Assembly (NCBI GenBank): GCA_002591745.1
Contig: PDLQ01000004.1
Coordinates: 185,714-249,713 of the forward strand
Direction: 5' to 3'
Length of the DNA: 64,000 nucleotides
Source: Lewinellaceae bacterium SD302
Lineage (GTDB): Bacteria; Bacteroidota; Bacteroidia; Chitinophagales; Saprospiraceae
Shown here: in pieces, positions 977 through 61,303 of the stretch
How the letters are laid out: every line of letters starts with the position of its first letter
How positions within the stretch are numbered: position 1 is the stretch's first letter
Translations under genes and position numbers: made by a program
The notes under the pieces: generated by a model
Told to the model about the DNA's origin: nothing
What the model saw: only the letters and a program-made list of their open reading frames with translations
Databases searched by the model: none

Positions 977-985
977 GCTACTTTG
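977..985 (+). repeat. GCTACTTTG interspersed motif, copy 1
   Basis: Exact core followed by AAGACA (the AAG flank class). It lies 58 bp upstream of the start of the barrel gene and opens the short-word repeat region 991-1121. Confidence 0.85.
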
Positions 986-990
986 AAGAC

Positions 991-1121
991 ATAATGGTCT
1001 TACGGTCTTACGGTCTCATAGTCTTGCGGTCTTACAGTCTTACGGTCTTGCGGGCGAGCATGATGCGGTGGCCGTTAGACCGTTAGACTGTCAGACCGTT
1101 AGACCGTAAGACTGTCAGACC
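991..1121. repeat. Array of short direct and inverted words (GTCTTACG / CCGTTAGAC)
   Basis: About 130 bp between two leftward genes. The left half holds at least five variants of GTCTTACGG. The right half holds variants of CCGTTAGAC and CTGTCAGAC, which are partly reverse complements of the left half, so the region can fold back on itself. It begins directly after motif copy 1 and ends at the stop codon of the TPR gene. No reading frame is supported here. Confidence 0.7.
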
Positions 1122-1122
1122 A

Positions 1123-4260: not shown

Positions 4261-4743
4261 CGCAAATATTTTTGTGGGTTTTCACCGGCTCCGGGAAAGA
4301 AGCCTTGTGCGCAAGATAGTGTAATTGCTAATATGTTAGGATAAAAGACAAATCGCGGCTATAACGTAAGGTGACGGGGGAAATGTTGTCTCGTCATAAA
4401 CCAGTAGACCAGATTCAGGCATTCTTATTCCCGGAAGGATTTGTTGGGGCCAAACGCATCTATTTGGAGAATATGCGGTTAAGTCGCTGACAACTCCGAA
4501 AAGCTAATCAGGGGAGTAGCCATTTTGTTGGCTAACAACTCTGAGTACGCAGGACAACTCCGAGGAGCTTGCGACGATCACCGCAGGTCATCAGCGAGCT
4601 TTCTTTATGGCTAACAAAGTAGCAATGGTTTTAAGGTCGAACAATAATTTCGCTTCAAACCTTCCACCTTTAATCCATCGAACTTCAGTCCCTCTAACTT
4701 CAACCCTTCCGTTCTTCTTAATAAGTCCCCAATTATAACCGAC
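4261..4743. other. 483-bp divergent intergenic region
   Basis: It lies between the leftward TPR gene and the rightward SDR gene, so it must hold both promoters; no clear TAnnTTTG box was found. It contains a truncated motif-like word (TTGGCTAACAACTC, about 4528), motif copy 2 at 4615, and at about 4648-4720 a run of degenerate 12-15-bp words of the type TTCAAACCTTCCACC. Read on the minus strand these spell a repetitive EGLK-type peptide, but this is a DNA repeat rather than a gene. Confidence 0.6.
4615..4623 (-). repeat. GCTACTTTG interspersed motif, copy 2
   Basis: Minus-strand copy in its long form GCTACTTTGTTAGCCA (4608-4623), directly upstream of the short-word array at 4648-4720 and 121 bp before the SDR start codon. 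Confidence 0.85.
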
Positions 4744-6320: not shown

Positions 6321-7337
6321 ATGCAAGCACCGCAATTCGAGAAAAAATCTTTTTGGAAACGCCCCGAGGGGGTAACCGGCCTGTTATTTCTGATGGCCAT
6401 CGTTGGCGGCATTGGCTTTTTGGTAGCCACCAGTTTCAGTGCCATCATGGCCGCGCTTTCCAATACCCTGGTACTGGCCGCTACTTTGGCGGCATTGGGG
6501 GTGTTGGTTTACGTAGTGGTCGATCCAAAGACCAGAGCATTAATGAGTTATATGTACAAATCCGTTATGCGGTCCATCACCGGAATGTTCGTCAACCTGG
6601 ACCCCATCGGTATCCTGAAGAGTTACGTGGAAGAGATGGAAAAGAACATCCGTAAACTCCGCGAGCAGATCGGTAAGATCCGTGGCCAGAGCCGCCAACT
6701 ACAAACCCTGATGGAACGCAACGCCGCTGAGATCGATAACCAGCTCAAACTGGCCAAGATCGCCCGGGAGCGCGGTAAAAAGCAACCCATGATCCTCAGC
6801 AGCCGTAAAGCGGCTCGCCTCCAGGAGAGCAACGCCAAGTACGCCGCGCTGCGCAAGAAGATCGATATCCTGTACCGCATCCTCACCCGCATGCACGATA
6901 ATAGCGAAGTGCTGCTGGAAGACACCAAGGACCAGGTACGGCTAAAGGAGGTAGAGCGTAAAGCCATCCGTGCCAGTCACGGAGCCATGAAGTCAGCCAT
7001 GAGCGTCATTAACGGCCAGCCGGACCAACGTGCTATGTTCGACCAGGCCATGGAACACATCGCCGACGACGTGGCCAATAAAGTCGGGGAAATGGAACGC
7101 TTCATGGAAATGAGCAGCAACTTCATGACCAGTATCGACCTGCAAAACGGAGTTTTCGAAGAACAGGGCATGGCCATGCTGGAAGCCTACGAAAAACAGT
7201 CGGATTTGCTTTTAAGTGGTGGTCATATCCAGGCGGACGAGACCTTGGATCTGGAAAGCCCCCGTGCCGAGCCGGAAGCCCAGACGCGTCGGGCCAACGA
7301 TAGTGGGGAGAGTAGCAACTACGACCAGTTTTTTTAG
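6321..7337 (+). CDS. Membrane-anchored coiled-coil protein
   Basis: 338 residues. Two hydrophobic segments lie near residues 19-38 and 44-66 (VTGLLFLMAIVGGIGFLVA and the stretch ending VLVYVVV), with only a short turn between them, so this is a membrane hairpin rather than a signal peptide. From about residue 95 the protein is mostly a long helical coiled coil rich in Lys, Arg and Glu (EEMEKNIRKLREQIGKI; MERNAAEIDNQLKLAKIARE). A Met-rich helix follows (KVGEMERFMEMSSNFM), then an acidic disordered tail. A cytoplasmic coiled coil anchored to the inner membrane is the simplest topology. It is probably transcribed with the coiled-coil gene before it. No named family is recognised. Confidence 0.85.
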   Translation: MQAPQFEKKSFWKRPEGVTGLLFLMAIVGGIGFLVATSFSAIMAALSNTLVLAATLAALGVLVYVVVDPKTRALMSYMYKSVMRSITGMFVNLDPIGILKSYVEEMEKNIRKLREQIGKIRGQSRQLQTLMERNAAEIDNQLKLAKIARERGKKQPMILSSRKAARLQESNAKYAALRKKIDILYRILTRMHDNSEVLLEDTKDQVRLKEVERKAIRASHGAMKSAMSVINGQPDQRAMFDQAMEHIADDVANKVGEMERFMEMSSNFMTSIDLQNGVFEEQGMAMLEAYEKQSDLLLSGGHIQADETLDLESPRAEPEAQTRRANDSGESSNYDQFF

Positions 7338-7956: not shown

Positions 7957-7965
7957 GCTACTTTG
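7957..7965 (+). repeat. GCTACTTTG interspersed motif, copy 3
   Basis: Followed by AAGACATAATGG, the same 12 bases that follow copy 1 at 977, so these two copies share at least 21 identical bases. Intergenic, between two leftward genes. Confidence 0.85.
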
Positions 7966-9481: not shown

Positions 9482-9490
9482 CAAAGTAGC
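9482..9490 (-). repeat. GCTACTTTG interspersed motif, copy 4
   Basis: Minus-strand form GCTACTTTGCTAGTCA. It lies 55 bp upstream of the arginine decarboxylase start and beside the large inverted repeat at 9513-9675. Confidence 0.85.
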
Positions 9491-13020: not shown

Positions 13021-13029
13021 CAAAGTAGC
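13021..13029 (-). repeat. GCTACTTTG interspersed motif, copy 5
   Basis: Long form on the minus strand (GCTACTTTGTTAGCCA). It forms an inverted pair with copy 6, 16 of whose bases match it with two mismatches; the pair spans 13014-13197. Confidence 0.85.
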
Positions 13030-13181: not shown

Positions 13182-13190
13182 GCTACTTTG
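13182..13190 (+). repeat. GCTACTTTG interspersed motif, copy 6
   Basis: Followed by ACAGCCA. It immediately abuts the terminator of TonB receptor B. Confidence 0.85.
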
Positions 13191-18174: not shown

Positions 18175-19761
18175 TTATAAGTTAAAGCGCAGACCCAAAT
18201 TTACCGTGCCGGCACTCCCGTTTACGCTGCTGATGAAGTCGTTCTGAAAGGCCGTGGTTAGTAACTCTACCTCAAATTTGGGGGTAAACTGGTACTTGGC
18301 ACCTACCCCCAACTGGTAGAAGTAGTCGTAATTCTCCTGCCAGTAAGGACTGTAACTGGCCAGACCATAAAGGGTAGTCTTCGGGCTGGGGAAGTAGCTG
18401 AAAATACCGGTGACTGGAGTAGAGAAGCGATTTATCCGTCCCTCTTCTTCGGCTCCGATGTCTTCGATGAGGGCATCGACCTCGGCGAAAAAGGAGAAGT
18501 TGTTGCCTATGGAAAAATCATTAAAGAATTGGGTGAACCAACTTGGTCCGCCAAAGTCGGTGAAACGTCCGTCGTTCTCGGCTCCGGTGGGGTCATCGGC
18601 CACGGGAAAGAGGAAGGAACTTTGCACGGAAAAATTAGGTAGTTTTTCAAAGGGGGCGATCCGCACCTTGGGTCCGAAACCTGTGACTGCCGAGCGAAAG
18701 GAATTGGCACCTTCGTTACTGAATACATCGAAATTATTAGCGGTGCCGGCTTCATCGTAACGGACGCGGCGGTAGCGCAGGTCGAAGCCCACGTTAACCC
18801 GATTCGTCAGTCCATACAGTACGCTGGTGGTAGCCGTAAAAAAAGAGGCGCGCTCTCCGGCGGCCTCCTGACTGTAAAGGTTGTTGAATATTTTGATCTC
18901 GAAACTTCCCCGGGGGATGGCCGAAGAGACCACGTAGCGGGCAGCATTATTGCCGCCGGGGGTGGCCGAGCCCCCACCATTGGCGGGAGTCGGTTCGGGC
19001 TTGATGATTTCGTTCAGTTGGGCACGGCCCCGTGTCTGGTTCAGGCTCCAGTCATAGGTGTAGTAGCTCACGCCGGCGGACTCGGGGATTTGCTCACTGC
19101 GGTAGCGATTGATGAAACCCAGTACCCTGGCCTTGCTACCGCCAAAATCTTTAGCATACCATTCAAAGATTTGCGAAAGCTCGGCTTGTTGGCCATTCAC
19201 ACGGATGAAATTACGGTCGTTGAGGGCCAGGCGTGTTTGCTTTTCCAATTGTGCTTCGAGTTGAGCGGGCTGATAAGCGAAACTGGTGATTGGCGGGCAA
19301 CCCAGGGCACCACAAACCAGCACGAAGTGCAGTCTTGCATCGTTGAATTCTCTTAGGATAAGTTCCTTCTCCAGCTGGTTCAGGGTGAGTTGGCGACCAC
19401 CAATGGCTTGTTTGTTACCATCAAAGAAACCCTTTACATCCAGTACGGATTTCAGCGGATAGTGCTGCAATGCCTGATTAATAACCAGCAGATTGTAAGC
19501 ATTGATGAGGTAAGCTTTCTTCGCATTGCCACTCAGAGCCTTCAATTCGACGGAGGCGATTTCTTCCACCAGCGGCTTTAGATCGTTACTGGCTTTCAGG
19601 GTGGCGTAGTCTACCCGGCCGGCTTTAACGTAGCGCATCAAAAAGGCGTCGGTCTCAACAAAAAACTCAGCCGGAGTCATGGCCGGTAACGGATTCAGGT
19701 TGGCTAACAAAGTAGCAATGCCGATGATCAGTGGAAGGAAAATTTTAGTTTGGACGTACAT
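18175..19761 (-). CDS. DUF547 domain protein fused to a C-terminal beta-barrel
   Basis: 528 residues from the ATG at 19761, chosen because it yields a signal peptide (MYVQTKIFLPLIIGIATLLA); upstream in-frame sequence has none. Residues about 30-235 are a DUF547 domain, with the typical KAYLINAYNLLVINQAL, LTLNQLE and HFVLVCGALGCPP elements. After a Pro/Gly-rich linker (TPANGGGSATPGGNN), residues about 280-528 are a transmembrane-barrel-like domain (GLTNRVNVGFDLRYRRVRYD; ending NLGLRFNL). It lies 4 bp upstream of the Omp85-like gene. The catalytic role of DUF547 is uncertain (the fold is related to papain-like enzymes). Motif copy 7 lies in the signal-peptide codons (ATLLAN). Confidence 0.85.
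   Translation of the reverse strand: MYVQTKIFLPLIIGIATLLANLNPLPAMTPAEFFVETDAFLMRYVKAGRVDYATLKASNDLKPLVEEIASVELKALSGNAKKAYLINAYNLLVINQALQHYPLKSVLDVKGFFDGNKQAIGGRQLTLNQLEKELILREFNDARLHFVLVCGALGCPPITSFAYQPAQLEAQLEKQTRLALNDRNFIRVNGQQAELSQIFEWYAKDFGGSKARVLGFINRYRSEQIPESAGVSYYTYDWSLNQTRGRAQLNEIIKPEPTPANGGGSATPGGNNAARYVVSSAIPRGSFEIKIFNNLYSQEAAGERASFFTATTSVLYGLTNRVNVGFDLRYRRVRYDEAGTANNFDVFSNEGANSFRSAVTGFGPKVRIAPFEKLPNFSVQSSFLFPVADDPTGAENDGRFTDFGGPSWFTQFFNDFSIGNNFSFFAEVDALIEDIGAEEEGRINRFSTPVTGIFSYFPSPKTTLYGLASYSPYWQENYDYFYQLGVGAKYQFTPKFEVELLTTAFQNDFISSVNGSAGTVNLGLRFNL
19708..19716 (-). repeat. GCTACTTTG interspersed motif, copy 7 (intragenic)
   Basis: The long form GCTACTTTGTTAGCCA is read in frame as Ala-Thr-Leu-Leu-Ala in the signal peptide of the DUF547 protein. 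Confidence 0.85.
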
Positions 19762-21217: not shown

Positions 21218-23428
21218 GTGTGGCTGCCAGAATGTTTACCTTGCTACTTTGTTAGCCAAAATCTTACCCGACCTTTGTCAAGAATAGAAGACCTCCTCCA
21301 ACGCATGACCCTGGCCGAGAAAGCCGGTCAGATGACCCAGGTGACCCTGGATACGATCAGTTACGGTAAACCTTACAAAGTTAAAAATCCGCTACGACTG
21401 AGTCCCCAAAAGCTTAAAAAGGTAATTGAGAAGAAGCTGGTTGGCTCCGTTCTCAACGTGGGTACTCACGCACATACACCTGCACGCTGGCGGGAATTGA
21501 TTGACGAAATTCAGGCGGCAGCGGCCAGGACCAGATTGGGGATTCCGGTGCTCTACGGGCTGGATACTATTCACGGAGCAAACTACGTGATGGGCAGTAC
21601 GCTGTTTCCTCAGCAGCTTGGTCTGGCCGCTACCGGAAATACGGAATTGGTAGAACAGGTCTTTTCCCTGGCTGCCCGTGATACGCTGCGAGCCGGGGTT
21701 CCTTGGTTGTTTGCGCCGGTGGCTGATCTTGGTCGCGACCCCCGCTGGCCCAGGCTATGGGAAGCCTTTGGCGAAGATGTTCAGATCACCAAAGATATGA
21801 CGGTAGCAGCCACCAAAGGCATTGAAAAGGTGGAGGGAGCTGCCTCTTGCCTTAAACATTTCCTGGGCTATGGCTATCCTCAAAGCGGAATGGACCGTAC
21901 CCCCGCCTGGATTCCCGAGCGACAATTGCGGGAGTACTATTTGCCACCTTTCGTGAGTGGACTGGCTGCCGGTAGTCCTTCGGTGATGGTAAATAGCGGA
22001 GAAATCAACGGAGAGCCGGTACACGCCAGTAAATTCTTGCTGACCGACCTGCTGCGTGGCGAATTAGGATTTGACGGGGTAGTAGTGACCGATTGGGAAG
22101 ACGTCATTTATCTGCATACTCGCCACCGGGTGGCCGATTCCTATCGCAGTGCTGTGAAAATCTCCATCGAAGCCGGCATCGATATGAGTATGACGGCTAT
22201 GGATACCGATTTCGCCGATCATATTGTCGACCTGGTGGAGAGCGGTGAATTACCCGAAGCCCGCATCGACGAAAGTGTAAGACGCATCTTACGGATGAAG
22301 GAAAAGCTGGGCTTATTCGAAATACCCAATCCCGGCCATGATTTTCCAGCGGCCAAACCAAAAAAAGACCTGGCGTTGGCTACCAAGGCGGCGGAGCAAT
22401 CGATCGTTTTACTAAAAAATAAACGGGGCGCTCTACCACTGAAAAAGCAGCAGCGTATTCTGGTCGTAGGGCCTACGGCCAATAGTAAGCGAAGCCTGCA
22501 CGGCGGTTGGACTTACACCTGGCAAGGAGAGAAGACTGACGAGCTGGACCCGTCTGAGCACCCCACTTTCCTGGCAGCATTTCGTAGTGAATACGGCAAG
22601 AAAAATGTCCGCTACGTCCAGGGCTGTAATCATCAGGATGAACTGAAGATGAAAAAACTGAAAGACAAACTGAAGTGGGCAGATCGGGTAATCCTGTGCC
22701 TCGGTGAAAGCAGCTACACTGAGTTTTTTGGCAGTCTCGATGATCTCTATTTATCCCCTGGCCAGGAAGAACTTTCGGTCCAGGTCGCAAAGGCCAAAAA
22801 GCCGACGACCTTACTGCTGCTGCAGGGGCGGCCGCGCTGTATCAGCCGGCTGAAGGGAAAATACGATTCTATTCTTACCGCTTTTTATCCCGGCCACGGA
22901 GGGGCTACTGCGCTTAGCGGTGTCCTGACGGGTAGGGTAAATCCATCGGGGCGTCTTCCGCTTACTTACCCCCGCTCACCCAATAGTTTGATTCCTTACG
23001 ACCATAAATCGACGGAAAACCAGGAACTGCAGGGGGCAAAGTCTGCTTTTGATCCCGAATTTGAATTCGGTTACGGTCTTAGTTATACTGATTTCAGCTA
23101 CCGAAAGTTAAAGTTGAAGAAGGATGTCGTCGGGCAAAATGATAAACTGAAGGTCAGTGTAAAGGTCAAAAACACCGGCCGGCGATCTGGCGGTCACGTT
23201 GTTCAGTTATATACGCGGACGCATTTTGCTGCGATAACACCCAGTGTGCGCCGCCTGCGGGCATTTCAACGCATTGAATTACAAGCAGGGGAGGAGCGAA
23301 CGGTAACATTCAGCATTGACGTTGCGGACCTGGCTTACATCGGACTGGATCAGCAGCCAAGGCTGGAGGACGGGAAATACAGCCTGATGATCGGGGACCT
23401 GGAAAAGGATTTCATGATTGCGGGGTGA
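21218..23428 (+). CDS. bglX: Glycoside hydrolase family 3 beta-glucosidase
   Basis: 736 residues from the GTG at 21218. GH3 layout: (beta/alpha)8 barrel with the family motifs LTLAEKAGQMTQ-like, GLDTIHGANYVMG, FAPVADLGRDPRW and CLKHFLGYG; the nucleophile is probably D292 in VVVTDWEDV. An alpha/beta sandwich follows (VVGPTANSKRSLHGGWTYTW), then a C-terminal fibronectin-III-like domain (GRRSGGHVVQLYTR). It hydrolyses terminal beta-glucosyl or similar residues. Periplasmic BglX enzymes carry a signal peptide; none is visible here, so the enzyme may be cytoplasmic. The start is uncertain: the first 18 codons overlap motif copy 8, and TTG 21275 or ATG 21305 are alternatives. It ends at a perfect bidirectional hairpin. 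Confidence 0.92.
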   Translation: MWLPECLPCYFVSQNLTRPLSRIEDLLQRMTLAEKAGQMTQVTLDTISYGKPYKVKNPLRLSPQKLKKVIEKKLVGSVLNVGTHAHTPARWRELIDEIQAAAARTRLGIPVLYGLDTIHGANYVMGSTLFPQQLGLAATGNTELVEQVFSLAARDTLRAGVPWLFAPVADLGRDPRWPRLWEAFGEDVQITKDMTVAATKGIEKVEGAASCLKHFLGYGYPQSGMDRTPAWIPERQLREYYLPPFVSGLAAGSPSVMVNSGEINGEPVHASKFLLTDLLRGELGFDGVVVTDWEDVIYLHTRHRVADSYRSAVKISIEAGIDMSMTAMDTDFADHIVDLVESGELPEARIDESVRRILRMKEKLGLFEIPNPGHDFPAAKPKKDLALATKAAEQSIVLLKNKRGALPLKKQQRILVVGPTANSKRSLHGGWTYTWQGEKTDELDPSEHPTFLAAFRSEYGKKNVRYVQGCNHQDELKMKKLKDKLKWADRVILCLGESSYTEFFGSLDDLYLSPGQEELSVQVAKAKKPTTLLLLQGRPRCISRLKGKYDSILTAFYPGHGGATALSGVLTGRVNPSGRLPLTYPRSPNSLIPYDHKSTENQELQGAKSAFDPEFEFGYGLSYTDFSYRKLKLKKDVVGQNDKLKVSVKVKNTGRRSGGHVVQLYTRTHFAAITPSVRRLRAFQRIELQAGEERTVTFSIDVADLAYIGLDQQPRLEDGKYSLMIGDLEKDFMIAG
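21243..21251 (+). repeat. GCTACTTTG interspersed motif, copy 8
   Basis: Long form GCTACTTTGTTAGCCA at the extreme 5' end of the bglX reading frame. If the true start is downstream, this copy is intergenic. Confidence 0.85.
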
Positions 23429-24856: not shown

Positions 24857-24890
24857 GGGGTGGGTATTAAAAGTTAGTGGTTGTATTCGA

Positions 24891-24959
24891 TGATCTAATG
24901 AAGCAATGATCTAATGAAGCAATGATCTAATGAAGCGATGATTTAATGAACTAATGAAG
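24891..24959. repeat. Tandem 16-bp repeat TGATCTAATGAAGCAA
   Basis: Three full units start at 24891, 24907 and 24923, the last with one change. Degenerate part-units (TGATTTAATGAA, CTAATGAAG) follow. An inverted related word, ATCAGATCATTAGATCA, lies at about 24966. It sits between the hlyD-like and tolC-like genes. Related ATCATTAGATCATT words occur at 34901, 35611 and 54807. Confidence 0.85.
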
Positions 24960-28559: not shown

Positions 28560-28679
28560 AATGGGTCGAGGACTTCCGGTCCGAGGTACTCGTTAGAGCG
28601 GCCTAACAAAAAGAGTCGTCAAGCTAAGCCCGTAATTCATAGTCAACGTAACACTCGGACCGGAGGTCCTCGACCCATT
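28560..28679. repeat. Long inverted repeat with GGTCGAGGACCTCCGG core, copy 1
   Basis: 26-bp arms (28560-28585 and 28654-28679) are reverse complements with one mismatch, around a 68-nt loop. The same arms recur at 42737-42814. Both copies lie 30-40 bp upstream of a leftward gene's start codon. Confidence 0.85.
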
Positions 28680-28759: not shown

Positions 28760-28768
28760 GCTACTTTG
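28760..28768 (+). repeat. GCTACTTTG interspersed motif, copy 9
   Basis: Long form GCTACTTTGTTAGCCA; left end of the ~130-bp element. Confidence 0.85.
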
Positions 28769-28879: not shown

Positions 28880-28888
28880 CAAAGTAGC
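28880..28888 (-). repeat. GCTACTTTG interspersed motif, copy 10
   Basis: Minus-strand GCTACTTTGTTAATCA; right end of the ~130-bp element, 28 bp after the stop-side end of the adhesin gene. Confidence 0.85.
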
Positions 28889-34453: not shown

Positions 34454-34462
34454 GCTACTTTG
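34454..34462 (+). repeat. GCTACTTTG interspersed motif, copy 11
   Basis: Followed by AAGTCAAAATGATCTAAT. With copy 12 (inverted, at 34975) it brackets the arfB gene. Confidence 0.85.
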
Positions 34463-34900: not shown

Positions 34901-34965
34901 GGATCTAATGATCTAATGATTGAGCTTGACTATTCTATCACCGGATCATGGACTCATTAAATCAT
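34901..34965. repeat. GATCTAATG word repeat, copy 2
   Basis: GGATCTAATGATCTAATGATT followed by GGACTCATTAAATCATT. Same words as the tandem array at 24891, here leading directly into motif copy 12. Confidence 0.65.
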
Positions 34966-34974: not shown

Positions 34975-34983
34975 CAAAGTAGC
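34975..34983 (-). repeat. GCTACTTTG interspersed motif, copy 12
   Basis: Minus-strand GCTACTTTGTTAGTCA, upstream of arfB and just past the DinB stop codon. Confidence 0.85.
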
Positions 34984-35610: not shown

Positions 35611-35664
35611 AATCATCACACATTTTATCATTAGATCATTGACTCATTAGATCATTACCTAATG
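35611..35664. repeat. ATCATTAGATCATTGACTC word repeat, copy 3
   Basis: Two copies of CATTAGATCATT separated by GACT, in the divergent region between DinB and purH. The purH promoter begins right after it. Confidence 0.65.
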
Positions 35665-37234: not shown

Positions 37235-37987
37235 TTGCAACAATACGTTATCGACATCGGCAATAGCCGGATCAAGGGTGCCGCCTTTGCGAACGACAAT
37301 CTGGTTGAAGGTTCGGTACGGATTTTCGAACGGAATGACTGGTCGGAAATCTATCGGGAGATAACCAACCACCAGGCAAAAAAGCTGCTCTATTCTACGG
37401 TGGCAAACGTGCCTCCGTCAATTCTGCTGCACAAATTACAGTCCGAAGGTCGCAAGGTTTACAGCCTGGACCATAATTCGCCACTGCCCTTTACCAACGG
37501 TTACGAAAGTCCGGAAACCTTGGGGAAAGATCGTCTGGCCGCCGTGGCCGGAGCGATGAGTCTGAGGAGTGAAGGTAATTTTCTGGTTGTAGACGCCGGT
37601 ACCTGCGTAACGTTGGATTTACTGACCATGGCGGACGAAACCTACCGGGGCGGTATCATTAGCCCTGGTGTGCATATGCGTTTAAAGGCGATGCACGAAG
37701 GTACGGCCCGCTTACCTCTGGTAACACCCGACCAGAGCAAAGGAGCGTTGAAACTGGGTAAGAATACAACTGATGCCGTCCGGTTGGGAGGGCAATTGGG
37801 GGTGGCTAACGAAGTAGCAGGGTTTTACGCAAAACTGAATGCTGAATTTGCTCCGCTAACCCTCATCTTAACGGGAGGAGATGCAGATATGATTGATCTA
37901 CACCTAGACCGAAACTCATTTTCTGATTACGCTTTGGAACCCCATTTAGTCCTTTTGGGACTGAATAAAATTCTTAGAGCATGTTAA
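37235..37987 (+). CDS. coaX: Type III pantothenate kinase
   Basis: 250 residues, starting at TTG 37235, which places the family's N-terminal phosphate-binding motif at the very start (YVIDIGNSRIKG). Other ASKHA-type motifs: GKDRLAAVAGAM, VVDAGTCVTLDLL, GGIISPGVHMRLKAMHEGTARLP and LTGGDA. It phosphorylates pantothenate, the committed step of coenzyme A synthesis. It lies 14 bp after purH and is followed by an outer-membrane protein gene at 38026, continuing the same transcription unit. A one-mismatch version of the interspersed motif (37810-37818) lies antisense inside it and encodes ANEVA. Confidence 0.95.
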   Translation: MQQYVIDIGNSRIKGAAFANDNLVEGSVRIFERNDWSEIYREITNHQAKKLLYSTVANVPPSILLHKLQSEGRKVYSLDHNSPLPFTNGYESPETLGKDRLAAVAGAMSLRSEGNFLVVDAGTCVTLDLLTMADETYRGGIISPGVHMRLKAMHEGTARLPLVTPDQSKGALKLGKNTTDAVRLGGQLGVANEVAGFYAKLNAEFAPLTLILTGGDADMIDLHLDRNSFSDYALEPHLVLLGLNKILRAC

Positions 37988-38025: not shown

Positions 38026-39378
38026 ATGCGGTTCTTTCTTTTGCTTATCATGAGCACTGCTACTTTGCTAGTCAATGCCCAACAAACCAGTTTTACGGAT
38101 ATCCGTCCGAAGCAGAACAGCCCGCTGTCCCGTTTTGGCTTGGGTGATCCGCTGGACCAGCATTTCGCCGCTCAGGCTGGTATGGGGGGCTTACAGGCCG
38201 TCTACCAGGACCGTTACCAGTTGAATGTACTCAACCCCGCATCCCTGGCTGTACTGCAGACCACCAGCTTCGACGTTGGTCTTTACGGTCGGGTAGGCAC
38301 ATTGTCCGATGCCAACGAATCGGCCGGTACGGAGAGTGGAAACCTGTCCTATCTGGCGCTTGGCTTTCCGCTGCGTAACCCCATCAACCTCAATCTGGAT
38401 CGCCAGAGCAACAGTTGGAACGCCGGCATGGCCTTCAGCCTTGCTCCTACTACGCTGGTGGGCTACGATCTCGAATTGGAGGACGATGACCCCGATCTGG
38501 GCACAACCAGTAATCTCTTACGTGGTAACGGAGGCACCTACCGCGTTACCTGGTCCACGGCCTACCGCCGCAAAGCATTGAGCGTGGGACTGAACGTGAA
38601 CTATAACTTTGGTCAGTTACTGAATAGTAGGGTGGTTGTTTTCGACAGTATCGGCAACGCCCTGGCGACCGAATTGGAAGAAAAAACATCCATTAGTGGA
38701 TTTAGTATTGGTTATGGCGTGCAGTATTCCTACTTCTTCAAAAGTCGAAACGATAAGGGGGAGATGACGTCAAACGGCAAACGATTGATCGTAGGTGTTA
38801 ATGGAAAGTTACAATCGAACGTCTCGGCCACTTCGGATATACTGCGCCGTCGTTTCTCTCCCAGCGGCGTGATCTTCGTCTCCGATACCCTGCGTAACGA
38901 CGTGGATGTGGAAGGCGAACTAACGCTACCGAGCGAAATCAATTTTGGTCTCGCTTACGAAGAAGTGGACCGCTTGTTCGTCGGCCTGGAGTACGGAGTC
39001 GGTAACTGGAGTAATTTTCAGATAAACGGAGACGCCGATCCGGAGCTGGTAAACACCAATCGTTTGGCTTTTGGCATCCAGTATATACCGGATGCGACCT
39101 CCTATAACCGTTTTTTCAAGCGGGTCCGTTACCGGGCCGGTCTGCGGCTGGAAAACGATTCCCGCCAGGTAAATGGAGAACAAGCAAGACGGAATGTGGT
39201 TACTTTAGGCGTCGGTTTACCAATTGTTTTGCCACGACAACAAGTGTCTTTTTTAAATTTTGCCGTCGAAATGGGTAAGTTTGGCGTTCCAAACGTTATT
39301 GACGAGAATTATGTCCAGTTCACTCTGGGTTTCTCACTCAACGACAACACCTGGTTCTATAAACGTAAATTCAACTAA
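38026..39378 (+). CDS. Outer-membrane beta-barrel protein (FadL/PorV-like)
   Basis: 450 residues from the ATG at 38026, which gives a signal peptide (MRFFLLLIMSTATLLVNAQQ); an earlier ATG at 37981 overlaps coaX and adds a non-signal extension. The mature N-terminus, KQNSPLSRFGLGDPLDQHFAAQAGMGGLQAVYQDRYQLNVLNPASLA, matches the N-terminal pattern of FadL-type Bacteroidota barrels (small-residue loop, then NPASLA). Strands alternate to the C-terminus (FTLGFSLNDNTWFYKRKFN). The substrate is unknown. It lies between coaX and a TPR gene (8-bp gap) in a purH-coaX-OMP-TPR unit. Motif copy 13 encodes ATLLV in the signal peptide. Confidence 0.85.
   Translation: MRFFLLLIMSTATLLVNAQQTSFTDIRPKQNSPLSRFGLGDPLDQHFAAQAGMGGLQAVYQDRYQLNVLNPASLAVLQTTSFDVGLYGRVGTLSDANESAGTESGNLSYLALGFPLRNPINLNLDRQSNSWNAGMAFSLAPTTLVGYDLELEDDDPDLGTTSNLLRGNGGTYRVTWSTAYRRKALSVGLNVNYNFGQLLNSRVVVFDSIGNALATELEEKTSISGFSIGYGVQYSYFFKSRNDKGEMTSNGKRLIVGVNGKLQSNVSATSDILRRRFSPSGVIFVSDTLRNDVDVEGELTLPSEINFGLAYEEVDRLFVGLEYGVGNWSNFQINGDADPELVNTNRLAFGIQYIPDATSYNRFFKRVRYRAGLRLENDSRQVNGEQARRNVVTLGVGLPIVLPRQQVSFLNFAVEMGKFGVPNVIDENYVQFTLGFSLNDNTWFYKRKFN
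38059..38067 (+). repeat. GCTACTTTG interspersed motif, copy 13 (intragenic)
   Basis: GCTACTTTGCTAGTCA, read in frame as Ala-Thr-Leu-Leu-Val within the signal peptide of the FadL-like barrel. Confidence 0.85.
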
Positions 39379-42736: not shown

Positions 42737-42814
42737 AATGGGTCGAGGACCTCCGGTCCGAGTATCGTGGGTTGCCGCTCTGGCAAGTACTTCGGACCGG
42801 AGGTCCTCGACCCC
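42737..42814. repeat. Long inverted repeat with GGTCGAGGACCTCCGG core, copy 2
   Basis: Arms 42737-42762 and 42790-42814 match each other over 24-25 bp and match the arms at 28560-28679. The loop here is 27 nt instead of 68. It lies 31 bp upstream of the ABC exporter start. Confidence 0.85.
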
Positions 42815-42992: not shown

Positions 42993-45900
42993 ATGCGCTT
43001 TTTTGCTACCCTATTAATATTGACAAGCTTTACTGTCTACGGCGCTTTGAACGCTCAGCCTGCCTTCACCAACGCTACCAGCCAGCTCTTCTACCAGAAT
43101 ACCTCCAGCGGCGCACCTATCGGCTGTGCGGATATGAATGGCGATGGCCTGGACGATATCGTACATATCTACCGCCCCACGGATATGGTGCGTATCCAGT
43201 ATCAGCAGCCCGGCCAAAATTTTGTTGGCCTGGAAGTGATGGGTAGCACAAGTAATCCCTGGTCTCTGGCCCTGGCGGACGTTAATGCCGATGGCCTGAA
43301 CGATATCTTCTTAGGGCCGGTTGCAAATCCTGAAGTGCTGATCTCTACCGGCGTTCCCGGAGCTTACCTGAAAACTACGCTCAGCCAGTCCGTCTTTTCG
43401 CAAGGGGCCAACTTTTCGGACATTGACGTAGACGGCGATCTGGATCTGTTCGTTTGCCACGACGTAGGTCTTTCTACGCCCTACCGTAACGATGGCAGCG
43501 GCAATTTTACCTACGATCTGAGCCTGATCGCCGCCTACACCAATGGTGATAGTGACAACAGCGGCAACTATGCTACGATCTGGACGGACTACGACAACGA
43601 CGGCGATCAGGATATGTACCTCAGTCGTTGCCGGCAGGGTGCTGGTAATCCGCTGGACCCCCGTCGCATCAACCAGCTCTTTCAAAATGACGGCAATGGT
43701 AACTTCACCGACGTAGCCGAAGCCGCGGGCCTGATGCCCCTGGCCCAAAGCTGGGCGACCGATTTTGCCGATCTGGATAATGATGGCGACCTGGATTGCG
43801 TCATTCTCAACCACGATCAGACGAGTAGAATCTACGAACAAACCAGCCCCGGTCTTTTTACTGACCGTACGATAGAAGTCGGATTGAATGTAAACCCTTT
43901 TACCCCCGGTATTCAGGTCATCATCGAAGATTTTGACAACGATGGCTGGCAAGACCTTGTATTGACGGGTACGAGCGGCGATCTCTTCATGCAGAACCAG
44001 GGTGATTTTACTTTTACATTTCACCACAACGACATCTCCGGGGGGGCTGAACCGATCCACACCGCCGCCGTTGGTGATTTGAACAACGACGGACGCCTGG
44101 ACCTGATCGCCGGGCGAGGCAGCGGGTTCAATGGCACTTCCAGCAGTAATCCTGATGTATTGTTGTTGAATGATAACATTAATGAGAACAATTTCCTCAA
44201 AATCCGTCTGGAAGGGGAGCATAGTAACCGTAATGGGGTCGGTTCCCGACTGGAAGTTTACGGGGATTGGGGTGTACAGGTCCGGGAGGTTCGGGCGGGG
44301 GAGAGTTACGGGATATCCCACTCCCTCACCAAACATTTCGGATTGGGAGAAGCCACGGAAATCGATAGCCTGGCGGTGCGCTGGCCAGACGGTGACCGCT
44401 ACGTTTTTCAGGGTTTGAGCGTTAATACCACTTACCTCATCCCCGAGAGGCCCCAGGAAATTATTTTGACTAGCATAGAAGCAATGATCTGTGAAGGAGA
44501 CACGCTCTTTGCTTTCGGCCAGGTCTTTACTGAAGCCGGGATTTACCAAAATCTGCCCGAATTGATCGAGATAGATACGCTTGCTTTAGTAAGTCTGCAT
44601 CTCGGTTTGTACGAAAGCTCTGCTACTTTGTTAGCCACCCAAATTTGCCAGGGAGAAGACTACCTGGCTCAGGATGGGACCGTTTACTCCTTGGCTATCG
44701 AAGACTTTACTCACCAAAGCGTATTGACCAACCAGAATGGCTGTGATAGTATTATTGAAGAGACGATCACGGTGTTTCCGCTTTTAAATGACACCATGTA
44801 CGTTGACCTGTGCCCGGGCCAGGGGTATCAAACCCAGGATGGAAGTGAAATCTTGAACGTACAAGAAAGCTTTGTATACGAGAGCCTGCTGACCGATCAA
44901 AACGGTTGTGATCGAATCATCACCGAACAAGTGACCGTCTCGCCGGTGTATCAATTCACTTTGGAGAGTAATATTTGTTCGGGTGAGGACTTTATGGCAA
45001 TCGATGGAACCCTGTATGGACAGCTAACGGAATCTTTCGAGCATCTGAATGTTTTGACTACGATGAACGGTTGCGACAGCTTGATCGAAGAGGTAGTGAC
45101 GGTACAACCGACTTTTGTGGACACCCTGGAAGTTTCGATTTGCCAGGGCGAGAACTACGTCGCGCAGGACGGAACCGAATTTCCCAACTCAACCGAAAGC
45201 TTTACCTACCAGAGCGTTCTGACGGGGCAAAACGACTGTGATAGTATCGTTGAAGAGACCGTTACGGTGCTTCCGACATTCTCAAGCGAACTGGAGGCCT
45301 CCATCTGCTCGGCACAAGGTTATGTGGCCCAGGACGGTACTGAGTTTCCGGCACCCGAAGAAAGTTTTGTGTACCAAAGCATATTAACCGCCCAAAACGG
45401 TTGTGACAGTGTCATAACTGAGTCGGTGGAAGTAGTGACTTTTTACGAGTCAACAGAATTTGATACCATATGCTGGAAAAGTGATTACGTAGCCCCGGAC
45501 GGGACGGTTTTCGAAATGGTTCATGCACCCTTTCAGTATATAAGTTACGTAGTTGATACCAACGGCTGTTTCACCGTCATTACGTCGGAAGTGAGCCTGT
45601 ACCCAGGTCCGGTAGTCGGCCACGTACTGGAATTCGCTTGTCCGTTTACTACGCTCGTCTTCAATGACAGCACCTCAGTTTTCGTTGAAGACCGTGACAC
45701 TACTATACACGTAGATGTTCTTGATCAGAACGGTTGCCTGGGGAGTTTGAACTATGATATCATCGTCACCCCCTTTGAATTCATCATTGACGAAACCCCG
45801 ACCTCCCTGCTCTACAGTGGCGTAAACGAGGTTGTACAGTGGGTAGATTGTGACGCCGGTTTCGCGCCCATCGAGGGGGCTACGGACTTCGAATTCTTTC

Positions 45901-46326: not shown

Positions 46327-49300
46327 TTACAGCACCACCATTTTACGACTGGCGGAGAACTCACCAATACTCAGTGAGTAGAGTAAAACGCCGGTAGCGC
46401 CCTTTAGCTCGTCTCGCCGTATGTCAAACTGGTTGTATCCAGATCGGGCTTCCAGGGTGCGTTGGAGAAGGAGACGCCCGTCGATGCTTCTCACTTCCAG
46501 CCGGGCCTGGCCGCCGATCGGACTAGTAAAGTTGATCGTCGTCCGCTCGCTCACGGGGTTGGGGCTGTTTTGTGACAGCGAAAAATCACCCGCCATTTCG
46601 TCACCAAAGTCTGCCGTCCATTCCAAACCGAGATCGAGTACCTCACCGGACGCGGAATAGCTTTCCGCCGGCAGTATGCGGTCGCTTACGCTCAGGAAGT
46701 CGCTCAGGCGTCCGTCAGTCCGGGCCTTGAATCGAAGGGTGAAGAGTTCACCGGCCGGCCCGTCGTAGCTGAAGCCGATCAGCCCGGAGGCCAGGTGGTG
46801 GAGGTTGAAGTTACCCGCCTTGGCCAGTTCACCGTTCAACTCGATCATTTGTAGCTCACTACCGGCTTCCAGGCTTCCTTGCCAACCGACCAGGGTTTCG
46901 GTGGAAATGGTCACAGAGTAGTTGTTGCCAGCAACCAGATTTTGGTCGGTCACGAGCAATTTACCCCGGTTGCGTCCGTCGGTATTGCCATTCTGGTAAT
47001 CCCCATCACCTAACGGTACAGCGCCCGTCACGTTACCCATCTCGATGGCCGTAAAGTCGAGTCCGTTCTCGTTGCCTCCAAGATTATTGATAGTGGTGAC
47101 TTCCAGCAGATTTTCTGGGTCGTAGAAACGCCAGCTGTTGGTGTTGGCGAAACTTTGGTCCAGGTCCAGGATCACCCGGCGAATGGCGATGATGTCCAGG
47201 ATATTCACGTTTCCGTCGATGGTGACGTCGGCGGCCAGGTGTTGGAAATCGCTGGTGAACAAGTCCAGCCCCAGGATGTGACGGCTGATCAGGATGATGT
47301 CGGCCGTGGAAACCGTACTCAGGTTGACCTCCGGGTTGTAATCAGGCGTCAGGCTGTAATCTTCACCCAGCGGCAGATCCTGAAACAGGTACTGACCGCC
47401 GGCATTCGTTTGGTCGCTTTCGACCATGGTGCCGGCCAGTTCAATGGTCACGCCGCTCATCGGATCCAGTCCGGGAGTGACGATGCTGCCCGCCAGGGAG
47501 CCGGCGTCCGAACCATTCGTACAGATTCCGGGCTGGTTGGCCTGTACCAATAGCGAGGTTTGGCAAAAACCGGCCAGACCGGTCGCGTCGATGGCGTAAA
47601 TACGGACAACTTGTGGACCTAACAGATCACAGTCGAGCAACAAGCCGGTATCGATCGGGTTGGGAACGAAGCCGGGCTGGCTCGCGTCCTCGTCCAGATA
47701 AATGGCGAATTTAACCGGGCCGGAACAGTCGGATATGCCACTGACTACGAAATCGTTGGCCCAGATGGCGGCCATGCCACCACCGTTTCCATCGGGCATC
47801 AGCGTAGCGGTCAAGCCGTTGATACAGAGCGGAGTGGGGGCTTTGTCGTCAAAAATTTCGATCTCTACGAGTTGGAAAGCCGCGTTGCCGCAACCGTCCG
47901 TTGCCCGCAGTCGTACGGCGTGGCGACCAAAGGGCAGGTCCTCCAGCAATAGTCGGAAATTGCCCGGCGTGGGCTGGGTCAGGCTACTATTGATGCTGCC
48001 GCCGTCGTTGACAAAATCAGACAGGGTGTAAATACCATCCGGTCCGGGATTGATGAATTGGTCCACCTGGAAAGTGGCGCCGATCGCCAGGGAGGTACAA
48101 TCGTCGTCAATACTGAAATCTACGGTGGCATCGGCCAGGCAGTCCCCGTCAATATCACCGCTTTGGACTAACAAAGTAGCAGGGGTAATGGTCGGGGCCA
48201 GATCATCGTAGATCTTGATAAACTGCTGGTAACGGAAAGCACCCCGTTTTCGGTCCTGTCCGTATCCGGCAACGTCGGCCCCCGGAACAACGCCACCGTC
48301 TCCCGTATCCAGATTACCGATCTCGTTGAAGTTCCCCCGGATGAGGTCACGGTCCAGTTGCGCCACGTCGTCGGTTAGGGTATTTCGGTTATTGGGCAAT
48401 ACGTGAACCACCACCACTTCGTTGAGAATACCGTCGTTGTCCGCGTCGCGGGGGACGTTGTAGGGAGAAGACAGCGTACCGTACTCACACCAGTTCAGTA
48501 CTTCGTAGGTGATGCGCAATTTGTAACATTCGTCGGCGGTAGCCACGAAAGTATCGATATCGACGGCAATGGTGAATTCATCGCAGCCATCGGCCTGGGT
48601 GATCACGCCGTTATAATCCGGTTCCACGCAATCGCTGTTCTCTACGTCGGCGGGAAATACAATACTGTAGTCGTGTTCGCCGATAACGTTGATGAATTGA
48701 GCGCAGTTGCCGAGAGATACCAGCCCCTGAGCGTCGGTTACGCTGAAAGTGCGCTGGATGTTGCCCACGCCGCAGCTGTTGCGGTTGTCGAATACGCTCT
48801 GGCTCAAGCTGGTGCCGTCACAGTTGTCCAGAGCCGTCGGCAGGCCGAACCGGGCATTCAACAGAGCGATGGTGCCTTGCGGGTCGGTGGCAAAAGCCAG
48901 GTTCAGGTCCTGGGGGAAATTTTCGTCCAGGTCGGAGCAAGTGAAACTGAGGGGGGCGGGAGGCACGCAGACCGGAGCCGTTTTGTCTTCGATCAGCACG
49001 TCCAGCCAGCAATTGGTGGAGTTTTGACTACCGTCGGTCACTCGCAGGATCACCCGCAGGATGCCCAGGTCGTTGCAGTCCAAATTCAGGGCAGGCACAA
49101 ACTGTCCAATGGGGTTGTCATTGGCATCGGCCCGGGCAATAGCTAGGCTGACCGGTCCGCAATCGTCGGAACTTGCTTGGTTGGCGGTCTGGGCGGTCAG
49201 TATTCCGGTACCCTGGTTATTGAGGCTGATGTTCAGCCCGTTTTCACAAATGGCTACCGGAGCGGTGCGATCACCTATCTCAATTTCTACGTCCACGGAC

Positions 49301-54572: not shown

Positions 54573-54581
54573 CAAAGTAGC
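54573..54581 (-). repeat. GCTACTTTG interspersed motif, copy 16
   Basis: Minus-strand GCTACTTTGCCAGTCA, about 60 bp beyond the tRNA terminator. Confidence 0.85.
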
Positions 54582-54806: not shown

Positions 54807-54885
54807 TGATCCAATGGTGAAATGATTCAAGAGCATAAGTTAAGCAGGCATCATATCATTAGATCATTCAATCATTCAAATGATA
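54807..54885. repeat. ATCATTAGATCATT word repeat, copy 4
   Basis: ATTGATCCAATGGTGAAATGA on the left and ATCATTAGATCATTCAATCATT on the right form an imperfect inverted repeat upstream of the tRNA gene. Confidence 0.6.
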
Positions 54886-55004: not shown

Positions 55005-55568
55005 CTACAGGTCTTCAACCGGTACGAAATCCAGACTCACCGAATTAATACAATGGCGTAAACCGGTCGGCTCCGGCCCGTCCGGGAAAACGTGCCCCTG
55101 GTGACCGCCGCAGCGGGCGCAGCTTACCTCTACCCGGCGCATGCCGTAGCGATTGTCAACGTCTTCCTTGATGTAGTTGGGGTGGATGGGCTCATAAAAG
55201 CTGGGCCATCCGGTACCGGATTTGAATTTAGTGTCCGAGCTGTACAGTGGCAATCCACAGCCCCGGCAAGTATAGATGCCGGCGCGTTTGTTGTCCCAGA
55301 GATCGCCGGTAAAGGAGCGTTCAGTACCATCTTCACGCAGGACGTTGAATTCCTGATCGTTGAGTTCCGCTTTCCAATAAGCGGAGGTGGTGTCGAAGGG
55401 AATGACTTCACCCTCTACGGCGGGCGGGTCGTATTTGTATTGCGTCAGATCGGCAGTAACGGTAGCGCGCTCATTGGTATCGGTAGAAGCAGCATTTGCT
55501 ACTTTGTTAGTCTGACCACTGCAACTGGCTAAAAAGAGCAGGCAGCTAAGGAAGGATATAAATTTCAT
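55005..55568 (-). CDS. msrB: Peptide-methionine (R)-S-oxide reductase, lipoprotein form
   Basis: 187 residues from the ATG at 55568, chosen because it gives a lipoprotein signal (FLSCLLFLASCSGQ, lipobox LASC). The MsrB domain (about 50-187) has the two zinc Cys pairs CRGCG and CARCG, the substrate motif GTGWPSFYEPI, and the catalytic cysteine in RHCINSVSLDFV. It repairs the R-epimer of methionine sulfoxide in envelope proteins. An anchored periplasmic MsrB fits the exported location. It is encoded between the tRNA and the SulP transporter on the same strand. Motif copy 17 lies antisense just after the lipobox codons (TNKVA). Confidence 0.93.
   Translation of the reverse strand: MKFISFLSCLLFLASCSGQTNKVANAASTDTNERATVTADLTQYKYDPPAVEGEVIPFDTTSAYWKAELNDQEFNVLREDGTERSFTGDLWDNKRAGIYTCRGCGLPLYSSDTKFKSGTGWPSFYEPIHPNYIKEDVDNRYGMRRVEVSCARCGGHQGHVFPDGPEPTGLRHCINSVSLDFVPVEDL
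55498..55506 (+). repeat. GCTACTTTG interspersed motif, copy 17 (intragenic, antisense)
   Basis: GCTACTTTGTTAGTC on the plus strand; on the msrB sense strand it is read as Thr-Asn-Lys-Val-Ala in the linker after the lipid anchor. Confidence 0.85.
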
Positions 55569-57299: not shown

Positions 57300-57439
57300 T
57301 TGAACAAAATTAATGCTGCTTCCTTTTGAGGAAGTAAAACTATCACGAGAGGTAGTACAGCCAAAGTCGCAAATGGTTCTATCGTCCGTTAAAAATCTGA
57401 TGAAACCGGTGGTTTTTTCAGAGCAGTTAGCAAAAAAGC

Positions 57440-59373: not shown

Positions 59374-59391
59374 TATTTAATTGCGGGCACT

Positions 59392-59400
59392 GCTACTTTG
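59392..59400 (+). repeat. GCTACTTTG interspersed motif, copy 18
   Basis: Left end of the second ~130-bp element, 19 bp upstream of the lipoprotein start. Confidence 0.85.
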
Positions 59401-59512
59401 AAGTCAAACAGACCGCTACGCTGTTAGATGTTAGACGCTAGACCGCTGCGCTTTTAGACTGCCTCGCTGGTGCATTCAAATTAAAATCTAGCATCTAGTG
59501 TCTATCTGTCTT

Positions 59513-59521
59513 CAAAGTAGC
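59513..59521 (-). repeat. GCTACTTTG interspersed motif, copy 19
   Basis: Minus-strand GCTACTTTGAAGACA; right end of the second ~130-bp element. Confidence 0.85.
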
Positions 59522-59623
59522 AATGGTAGTTTAAACATATGACCTAGAAACTTTATGGTGCTGGAATAAAGAAGTTTATAATTTTTATTATTTTATGAGT
59601 ACTGATTCAGCAAAAAAAAACTT

Positions 59624-61303
59624 ATGAAAATTTTTCTCAATTTCTTTTTAGCGTTATCGTTTTTATCAAGTCTAGTCAGTCAAAATAACGATTGTAATTT
59701 TTTAATCCCAGGAGGCACAAAAAGCTGGAACCTCGCCAGAGGATCGTTTATCAATAACGAATGGGGGACACAAGTGATCGACTTCGAGCAAATCAACGAC
59801 CACTATTATTTATCCGGAGACACCACGATCAATGGATCATATGGGCAAAATTTTTATTACACTAATGGAATCGATGTTGATTCGGATACGGTCTTAATTG
59901 GTAGTTATACTTGTGACGGAGATTACGTGCTTTATCACCAGGTCACCAGCCCTCCGGCCAGTTCTTTAGTAAGGCCGCAAAATTGGTTCGATGATAACCA
60001 GGTTCTTAACTTCAATGCTGCCGTGGGAGACACGATCCTGTATACTAATAATGACGTGGGAGGCGATGTTTTTATCGTCGTTGAGAACGTAGATACCGTC
60101 ACTTTATTGGATGGAATCCCCCGTCGAAGACTTGACGTTAGGGATTATCAGCCATTTGGTCAACAGACTATTTCCGAGTTGCCAAGTCCGCTTTATTTGG
60201 TGGAAGGCGTGGGTAACATTAGAAGTGGCCTCCACTTACATTTCAGGAACACTTTCAATGACTGGAACTTCAGGCAATTGATTTGCTATCGGGAAAATGG
60301 AGAATTGGTTTATATTAATGATGATTATGAAGACTTGGGGTGCGATGCAGAACAACTTGTTGTGATTGATACGACTTACGTGCCTTTACTGAATGAGGTA
60401 CAAAAGCGCTGGAATCTGATGCGACTTAATTTTGTGGATGGAGATACCACCTCAGCCGTGCTGTACAATTATCAAGATACTTTAATTGAAAACGTGGAAT
60501 TTACTAAGTTCTACGTAAATAGCTTAGCGTACGATGGAAGTGATGAATGGTACGCCAACGGAGAATACGTAGGTGCATTTCGGGAAGAAGGGAGAGAAGT
60601 TTTTTTCAAGCATCCCGATAATCCTAATCAGCCTCTCAATAGACCGGTACTAGACTTTAATGCTGAGATCGGAGATACGATCTATCGTTATACGGATGAA
60701 AATAATGTTTTCTGGTTCGGTATAGTTTATCACCGTGTTGAACGCTACTTCGACGATAATTTGGCGAGAACCAGGTACTTTCATGTCGTACACTCATTGG
60801 ATCTCGATGACCCGCTCGCCGAACCGCTAGCTCTTTACGCAGAATGGGTATTCGAAGGTGTTTTGTTCGTCCACCCCCGAGGAATTGCCGGCTCGCTTTT
60901 TCAAAAGTTATTCAACCGACCCTCGGTAGAACACGTACAATGCTACTTTGAAGACAACACAAAAATCTTCCACACTGAATACGCGATCAGCGATCATTTA
61001 CCCTGCTTTTATGAGGGAATTACCACTTCAACTGGTGGTCCTGTTGCAATGGAGGGCCTGCCGGCCATTGCATTCCCAAATCCTACCACGGGACAACTTC
61101 AACTAACTACCGATCCGGATCGCCGCTTGCTCTCCGCTGAACTCATCGCCACGGCTACCGGTCGACGTAGTCCGCTGCAAGTCCCCGATGAGGCGATTGT
61201 GCAGACAACTTTGCAGCTTGGCGGGCATCCGGCGGGGCATTATGTTTTGCTGTTGCGCTACCGGGATGGGAGAGTTGAGCGGATTAGCATCGTGAAGGAA
61301 TAG
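59624..61303 (+). CDS. T9SS-secreted protein with internal duplication, AT-rich gene
   Basis: 559 residues with a signal peptide (MKIFLNFFLALSFLSSLVSQ). Two related halves are visible: KSWNLARGSF ... VLNFNAAVGDTILY ... LICYRENG and KRWNLMRLNF ... VLDFNAEIGDTIYRY ... VQCYFEDN, each ending in an acidic/aromatic Cys-containing strand. A type A sorting domain follows (IAFPNPTTGQLQLTTDPDRR, GHYVLLLRYRDGR). The first ~1.3 kb is clearly more AT-rich than its neighbours, whereas the sorting-domain part is GC-rich, so the cargo part may be foreign DNA joined to a native tail. It is exported through T9SS; the cargo function is unknown. Motif copy 20 encodes CYFE. Confidence 0.9.
   Translation: MKIFLNFFLALSFLSSLVSQNNDCNFLIPGGTKSWNLARGSFINNEWGTQVIDFEQINDHYYLSGDTTINGSYGQNFYYTNGIDVDSDTVLIGSYTCDGDYVLYHQVTSPPASSLVRPQNWFDDNQVLNFNAAVGDTILYTNNDVGGDVFIVVENVDTVTLLDGIPRRRLDVRDYQPFGQQTISELPSPLYLVEGVGNIRSGLHLHFRNTFNDWNFRQLICYRENGELVYINDDYEDLGCDAEQLVVIDTTYVPLLNEVQKRWNLMRLNFVDGDTTSAVLYNYQDTLIENVEFTKFYVNSLAYDGSDEWYANGEYVGAFREEGREVFFKHPDNPNQPLNRPVLDFNAEIGDTIYRYTDENNVFWFGIVYHRVERYFDDNLARTRYFHVVHSLDLDDPLAEPLALYAEWVFEGVLFVHPRGIAGSLFQKLFNRPSVEHVQCYFEDNTKIFHTEYAISDHLPCFYEGITTSTGGPVAMEGLPAIAFPNPTTGQLQLTTDPDRRLLSAELIATATGRRSPLQVPDEAIVQTTLQLGGHPAGHYVLLLRYRDGRVERISIVKE
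60952..60960 (+). repeat. GCTACTTTG interspersed motif, copy 20 (intragenic)
   Basis: GCTACTTTGAAGACA, read in a different frame from the other sense copies (Cys-Tyr-Phe-Glu-Asp). Confidence 0.85.

Follow-up and report, generated by a model that had tools for sequence, protein, structure and literature searches.

A two-part interspersed site with strand-by-strand spacing in Neolewinella, a possible direction-dependent self-DNA tag

To our knowledge, established uptake sequences are confined to two families of Proteobacteria, where they work with type IV pili. Chi sequences, of 5-8 bases, are polar signals that act over kilobases. Here we describe the 9-base word GCTACTTTG and the longer site around it in a 64,000-base stretch of DNA from Lewinellaceae bacterium SD302 (the window), and compare the site with these systems. 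The window is the end of contig C82 of a Neolewinella genome (G000; 5,478,864 bases, or 5.48 Mb, in 147 contigs).

In the Neisseriaceae, the DNA uptake sequence (DUS) has a 10-base core in about 900-5,900 copies, with dialects that share a few fixed bases (PMC3630211). It lies in permissive intergenic places and in inverted pairs, and five family members have no obvious DUS (PMC3630211). The uptake signal sequence (USS) of H. influenzae combines a short core with AT-rich tracts. It has 1,471 copies, 65% of them in reading frames, is reported to be evenly spaced, and one site is said to work whatever its orientation (PMC1939737). In the Pasteurellaceae, USS occur in close -/+ pairs at a mean spacing of about 1 kb (PMC7811141). 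Among the Bacteroidota, Riemerella columbina is reported to prefer its own DNA, and for Riemerella candidate k-mers are listed with no tag established, which sets it apart from the case described here (PMC7965970). In open-access papers we found no description of the present sequences, nor of the motif in Bacteroidetes, Saprospira or Lewinella.

Copy number, anatomy and spacing of the site

An exact search of the window found 21 copies of GCTACTTTG, 12 on the plus and nine on the minus strand. Dinucleotide shuffles of the window averaged 0.48 copies, and not one in 100 had as many as 21. The over-representation claimed in the original prediction is therefore real. All 20 copies that it listed exist, in the near-balanced orientation it gave (11 plus, nine minus), and so does a one-mismatch copy at 37810. 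One coordinate, 60952, should read 60942 (+), and a plus-strand copy at 6480..6488 had been missed. The latter is the 9-mer only, with no preceding T and no 3' half; it lies in a gene and is probably a chance match. Most copies had been described as extending beyond the core, and 13 of the 20 listed run exactly into TTAGYCA or AAGWCA. The fourteen intergenic copies also reappeared, as 14 of the 21, with crude gene calls.

In the whole G000 genome, GCTACTTTG occurs 770 times on the forward and 763 times on the reverse strand, compared with 43 and 37 for the reversed word. The ten-mer TGCTACTTTG is found 675 and 669 times (1,344 in total), against nine and seven (16) for its reversed word, and the two-part pattern GCTACTTTG-N(1-2)-AGNCA 445 and 428 times (873), against one and none for the control. 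We read the anatomy of the site from 844 kb of G000, namely the window and 39 stretches of 20 kb. There, TGCTACTTTG occurs 227 times where a fourth-order Markov model expects 3.6. The full site has two parts, RRCAYTGCTACTTTG and, after one or two free bases, AGYCA with an A-rich run. The profile of 257 usable copies reads R-R-C-A-Y-T-GCTACTTTG, one or two free bases, A-G-Y-C-A and the A-rich run, with weak preferences beyond; the distance between the core and the second half-site thus varies by one base.

Most of the 30 one-mismatch neighbours of TGCTACTTTG are at background level, and the core is nearly all-or-none. The clearest excess is G at base 1 (21 vs 5.6 expected), followed by smaller ones at base 7 (C, 9 vs 1.7; A, 5 vs 1.3) and base 8 (C, 5 vs 1.3). 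With its nearly invariant core, softer flanks and flexible spacer, the motif looks like a protein recognition site and not like decaying copies. The site as a whole spans about 20 bases in two parts, is not palindromic, has GCTACTTTG as its core and is present in some 1,340 copies. If a single strand is read as a hairpin, the AGY of the G000 3' half could pair with the GCT of the core; no common hairpin stem was seen by eye in the 3' halves of the sister species G005 and G002.

The intergenic preference noticed in the window holds across the sample, as crude codon-based gene calls put 137 of the 227 ten-mers (60%) between genes, in 15% of the bases. This corresponds to one ten-mer per 0.9 kb between genes and one per 8 kb within them. 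Genes hold 108 of the 256 nine-mers, and 85 of these (43 sense, 42 antisense) share one frame per orientation. The motif has no preference for the G-rich strand (131 vs 125). With both strands taken together the mean spacing is 3.2 kb, and neighbouring copies in the stretches examined are at most 12.6 kb apart. The core resembles the -7 box of the Bacteroidota. A promoter element was nevertheless rejected, since the orientation in tandem intergenic regions is even (48 co-directional, 44 opposed) and many copies lie in genes. In divergent intergenic regions the copies point toward the nearest gene 37:10, a bias which may reflect the A-rich 3' flank.

Unexpectedly, when each orientation is considered separately, the copies are spaced far more evenly than by chance. 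The mean gap per orientation is 6.4 kb and the coefficient of variation (CV) 0.51, whereas copies placed uniformly would give 0.98 +- 0.06. Below 3.2 kb, same-direction pairs are strongly depleted (39 seen, 121.9 expected), whereas opposite-direction pairs are not (135 seen, 122.2 expected), their excess lying below 400 bases. After shuffling the orientation labels on fixed positions, none of 5,000 trials gave as few same-direction pairs within 3 kb. The rule appears at every location, with 11 same- and 25 opposite-direction pairs in coding sequence, 5 and 55 between genes and 19 and 46 in mixed pairs. Within 3 kb, copies with a good 3' half form 8 same- and 64 opposite-direction pairs, and pairs that include a weak copy 27 and 62. 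Good 3' halves thus go with stricter exclusion. The copies of each orientation therefore behave like a series of their own, and the 3' half matters. The same trend was seen within 3 kb in G002 (4 same, 37 opposite, shuffle mean 19.7; 96 positions listed) and in G005 (6 same, 22 opposite, shuffle mean 15.1).

Control sequences did not behave in this way. Four control words were chosen in G000 and one was left out for having too few copies; with the other three, same-direction pairs were not depleted (67, 1 and 10, where shuffles averaged 64.3, 1.3 and 6.0). In 400 kb of E. coli MG1655, Chi lacks even spacing by the same test (CV 1.37, null 1.31 +- 0.16), and its neighbours are 57 same- and 20 opposite-direction, again with no same-direction depletion. 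Polarity alone therefore does not create the spacing in G000. By its spacing, each copy would act in a single direction, or on a single strand, with a reach of several kilobases. The spacing also sets a new quantitative constraint for any model of self tags or of Chi.

Dialects and evolution among relatives

The genus was sampled with 21 genomes (G000 and 20 sister species) and the order with 248 genomes from 125 genera, 236 of them outside Neolewinella in the search for the word TGCACCTGCG. A first comparison with 12 sister species gave 25-81 copies of GCTACTTTG per genome and 18-103 of the reversed control. TGCTACTTTG is high only in G000, and the next highest of the 248 genomes has 55 copies. 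K-mer discovery in G005 yielded TGCACCTGCG, mostly followed by GCCGCGCCC and an A-rich run. Ten sisters carry it 1,193, 1,134, 1,098, 756, 640, 617, 594, 578, 518 and 364 times (nine of them above 500), and the other ten 252, 232, 230, 213, 163, 135, 123, 84, 61 and 28 times. G000 has 11 copies, and the reversed controls across the 21 genomes range from 2 to 30. Outside the genus the highest count is 48, with many genomes somewhat above their own reversed control. Nineteen of the 20 sisters exceed every sampled outside genome, G004 (61) and G023 (84) only modestly. The exception is G001, whose 28 copies (control 15) are not above the outside genomes, and this near absence suggests that the site is dispensable.

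TGCTACTTTG and TGCACCTGCG share TGC..CT..G, and both tolerate changes at bases 1 and 7, with base 3 also tolerant in G005. The printed G002 copies look like those of G000 in their variable spacing to the second half-site. In G005, intergenic DNA makes up 22% of the bases and holds 55 of the 94 copies of that species' word. These different but similar words among congeners, with their similar two-part build, are a dialect system.

A search for further dialects in G001 (100 kb) and in G004, G007, G012 and G023 (80 kb each) found nothing as strong. GGCACCCGCG is over-represented in G012 (L126-L129; 11 vs 0.8 expected in 80 kb) and may be another dialect, one that makes use of the tolerant seventh base. 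GCGAGGCCCA occurs 14 times in G023 (0.3 expected, in three of four stretches) and AGCTCCTCCA 10 times in G001 (0.4 expected, in three of five stretches). No comparable directional word was found in the relatives of other families G013, G014, G015 and G019 (80 kb each) and G016 (29 kb). G013 has a palindromic word, AACTTAAGTT (12 vs 0.3 expected, in three of four stretches).

To follow single copies, we compared G002 with its close relative G010, a small sample of seven copies in 20 kb. Six lie inside alignments of 82-88% identity. All ten bases are retained in five copies, one of which has poorly conserved surroundings, and another copy is interrupted by small insertions. The seventh is at the edge of an alignment, and the core is also present there in G010. 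One G010 copy has a core that is one base off that of G002, at the tolerant position 7. A site near purH is intact in G003, G022 and, as the 9-mer only, G006, and is changed by small alterations in G027, G002 and G010; the rows of G005 and G008 in this alignment were non-homologous and were left out. The PurH tree serves for orientation only, because its G023 row is bad (wrong frame) and 8 of its 18 inner branches are open. The divergence between G000 and G005 is too great to judge conserved position. These copies come and go in place. Such alteration in place between relatives argues that they are not a mobile repeat. An interspersed repeat of about 35-80 bases at G002 L137:10050-10134, unrelated to the site, has many matches across the G010 and G003 contigs.

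Possible functions of the site

The copy number, the anatomy, the dialects, the apparent dispensability and the evolution in place fit a self tag that resembles an uptake sequence. Our favoured reading, which we put forward tentatively and just short of calling it probable, is that the GCTACTTTG site may tag the cell's own DNA for natural transformation in a direction-dependent way, much as the DUS does in the Neisseriaceae. A DNA-binding protein would recognise one orientation of the site, perhaps on the incoming single strand or while the DNA is threaded from one side. With such reading, one copy per strand in each imported piece of several kilobases would be enough, and a second copy nearby in the same direction would be superfluous.

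The likeness to DUS and USS that the original prediction had pointed to stands for the anatomy, that is for copy number, strand balance, intergenic bias, a near-invariant core with soft flanks, dialects and evolution in place. It does not extend to the orientation-specific spacing, which a tag read alike from both sides would not require, nor to a pilus motor, on which known uptake sequences depend and which was not recognised in the genus. Like the DUS as described in PMC3630211, the site has a core of about 10 bases, a high copy number, species dialects with shared bases, intergenic places and inverted pairs. Unlike the DUS, it belongs to a different phylum and occurs at lower density, with a variable spacer of 1-2 bases to a second half-site and separately spaced orientations. 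With the USS it shares the short core with an AT-rich tract, the even spacing and the close opposite-strand pairs, whereas USS uptake is described as independent of orientation and USS are spaced at about 1 kb, compared with the 3.2 kb for both strands in G000 (PMC1939737, PMC7811141). We therefore do not claim formal membership in the DUS/USS family, since no pilus motor is recognised and orientation appears to matter.

Since the genus has no recognised pilus motor, the outer-membrane step of import would use another port. A candidate in G000 is encoded at L346:5673-10601, where a TonB-receptor-like barrel (CarboxypepD_reg) adjoins a triple-DUF5689 lipoprotein that is predicted to form a chain of oligonucleotide/oligosaccharide-binding (OB) folds. 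P0001 resembles OB-fold nucleic-acid binders. In its domains the pair resembles the Riemerella anatipestifer transformation genes RA0C_RS04915 and RA0C_RS04920, which have the same combination of barrel and DUF5689 (PMC8459023). Mutants in tonBA and tonBB transform less, and the tonBB effect was put down to iron (PMC8383284). Sister species without the barrel and lipoprotein pair would need a different port.

Several observations weigh against a transformation tag. The pilus motor (PilB/PilT/GspE) was not recognised in any of the 21 genus genomes, although pilins themselves were not searched. The T2SSE matches cover part of the profile and score no more than 19-25 bits. The family cut-off is narrowly passed in 11 of the 21 genomes, and the match examined, in G000, is a ClpB-like chaperone. 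ComEC is present in all 21 genomes, equally where the tag is rare, and so does not track it. The barrel and DUF5689 lipoprotein pair is found in one of the 21 genomes, G000, and is absent from all 20 sisters, so it cannot serve the dialect of the sisters. Relatives of the lipoprotein exist in other Saprospiraceae, while neither tag was seen in the sampled genomes outside the genus; the pair alone is thus probably not sufficient. No receptor common to the tagged species was found. The H. influenzae site, reported to be orientation-independent (PMC1939737), means that classical uptake sequences do not predict strand-specific spacing. The spacing itself is also not fully explained, since opposite-direction pairs at 800-1,600 bases are uneven in G000, with 23 outward (15.5 expected) and 6 inward (15.3 expected). 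This scarcity of inward and excess of outward pairs goes beyond a simple one-direction model. In G005, moreover, the per-strand regularity is weak (CV 0.83, compared with 1.01 +- 0.10).

A broader form of the self-tag reading, possible in our judgement and offered with some reserve, is that Neolewinella uses a directional address code. Each strand would be marked separately about every 6-7 kb, by a two-part site in wording specific to the species, and the marks would be read on single strands, or in one direction only, by a pilus-independent machine for import or repair. Such a code would be the first tag for self DNA in the Bacteroidota and the first in which the two orientations form independent series. 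If true, genome-wide self tags evolved again by another route, in a Bacteroidota genus with no recognisable pilus motor, and they would offer a handle on gene exchange among these marine bacteria.

The main rival, which we consider unlikely but worth keeping in view, is a Chi-like recombination hotspot, where a helicase-nuclease of the AddAB/RecBCD type would read the site from one side only and switch to repair. One-sided reading would call for a separate series of sites in each orientation and would account for both the polarity and the kilobase range. A RecB-like enzyme is indeed present, as a PDDEXK_1 protein of about 1,000-1,150 residues occurs in 20 of the 21 genus genomes (frames of 998-1,147 residues), while the incomplete G010 has only a weaker match in a frame of 406 residues. 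The G000 protein resembles RecB/AddA/UvrD helicases, below the cut-offs of those families. However, Chi itself lacks the even spacing and the same-direction depletion in E. coli, and known Chi sequences are shorter than the G000 site. The site is also enriched between genes, shows no bias to the G-rich strand and is rare in species that keep the enzyme.

We find it rather improbable that the site binds a chromosome-organising or segregation protein which loads or translocates in one direction. Even coverage, with no larger gap than the one given above, and polar spacing would suit such a protein, but a range from 28 to 1,193 copies of the word among the sisters would be odd for an essential chromosome function, and a G-rich-strand preference is again missing. 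Still less probable is a site from which chromosomal DNA would be packaged or transferred in one direction, for instance by a gene-transfer-agent-like particle that moves several kilobases per event, for which the polarity and the range of several kilobases per strand speak. A dispersed mobile or decaying short repeat, like repetitive extragenic palindromic (REP) sequences or miniature inverted-repeat transposable elements (MITE), would explain the high copy number and the many inverted pairs, but this reading, and with it the high-copy repeat family of the original prediction in its mobile sense, is rejected as very improbable, given a core that is close to all-or-none while the flanks vary, a spacer that differs by one base between copies, the even spacing per strand, the purH comparison and the copies that G002 and G010 keep in place with small changes.

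The copies and other repeats in the window

Three cores in the window belong to intergenic full sites, at 977..985 (+; AACATTGCTACTTTG-A-AGACA), 4615..4623 (-; ACCATTGCTACTTTG-TT-AGCCA) and 7957..7965 (+; CATTGCTACTTTG-A-AGACA). Further intergenic cores lie at 9482..9490 (-; 3' half CT-AGTCA), 34454..34462 (+; A-AGTCA), 34975..34983 (-; TT-AGTCA) and 54573..54581 (-; CC-AGTCA). Three intergenic pairs are close. The cores at 13021..13029 (-; TT-AGCCA) and 13182..13190 (+; AC-AGCCA) point outward, while those at 28760..28768 (+; TT-AGCCA) and 28880..28888 (-; TT-AATCA), and at 59392..59400 (+; A-AGTCA) and 59513..59521 (-; A-AGACA), point inward.

Other cores are associated with genes. The one at 19708..19716 (-; TT-AGCCA) is close to the start of a DUF547 gene, and the one at 21243..21251 (+; TT-AGCCA) is directly upstream of a glycosyl hydrolase family 3 gene. 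Two more are close to gene starts, at 38059..38067 (+; CT-AGTCA), where the frame reads Ala-Thr-Leu, and at 55498..55506 (+; TT-AGTCT), where the core is antisense. Within genes we found the cores at 44622..44630 (+; TT-AGCCA), 48172..48180 (-; TT-AGTCC) and 60942..60950 (+; A-AGACA), as well as the one-mismatch copy GCTACTTCG at 37810..37818 (-; TT-AGCCA). A degenerate copy of the motif is present at 44467-44486.

The window also contains other repeats. Two adjacent arrays of degenerate 8-base units, GGTCTTAC and CCGTTAGA, occupy 988-1129, and further 8-base arrays with other units are found at 24890-24957, 34902-34920, 35627-35657 and 54855-54881. Two of seven such period-8 arrays are near the motif, where one is expected at random, so there is no general link. 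A second interspersed repeat, which contains GGTCGAGGACCTCCGGTCCGAG, is present at 28560-28585 and 42737-42762, with 10 exact copies in the 844 kb. Where the main motif flanks an intergenic region, this repeat in several cases forms an inverted pair. Finally, the genes at 9691-12927 and 13294-16548 are tandem paralogues of about 1,080 codons each, with aligned blocks that are 69-82% alike in DNA, and the first of them encodes an outer-membrane TonB-receptor-like barrel.

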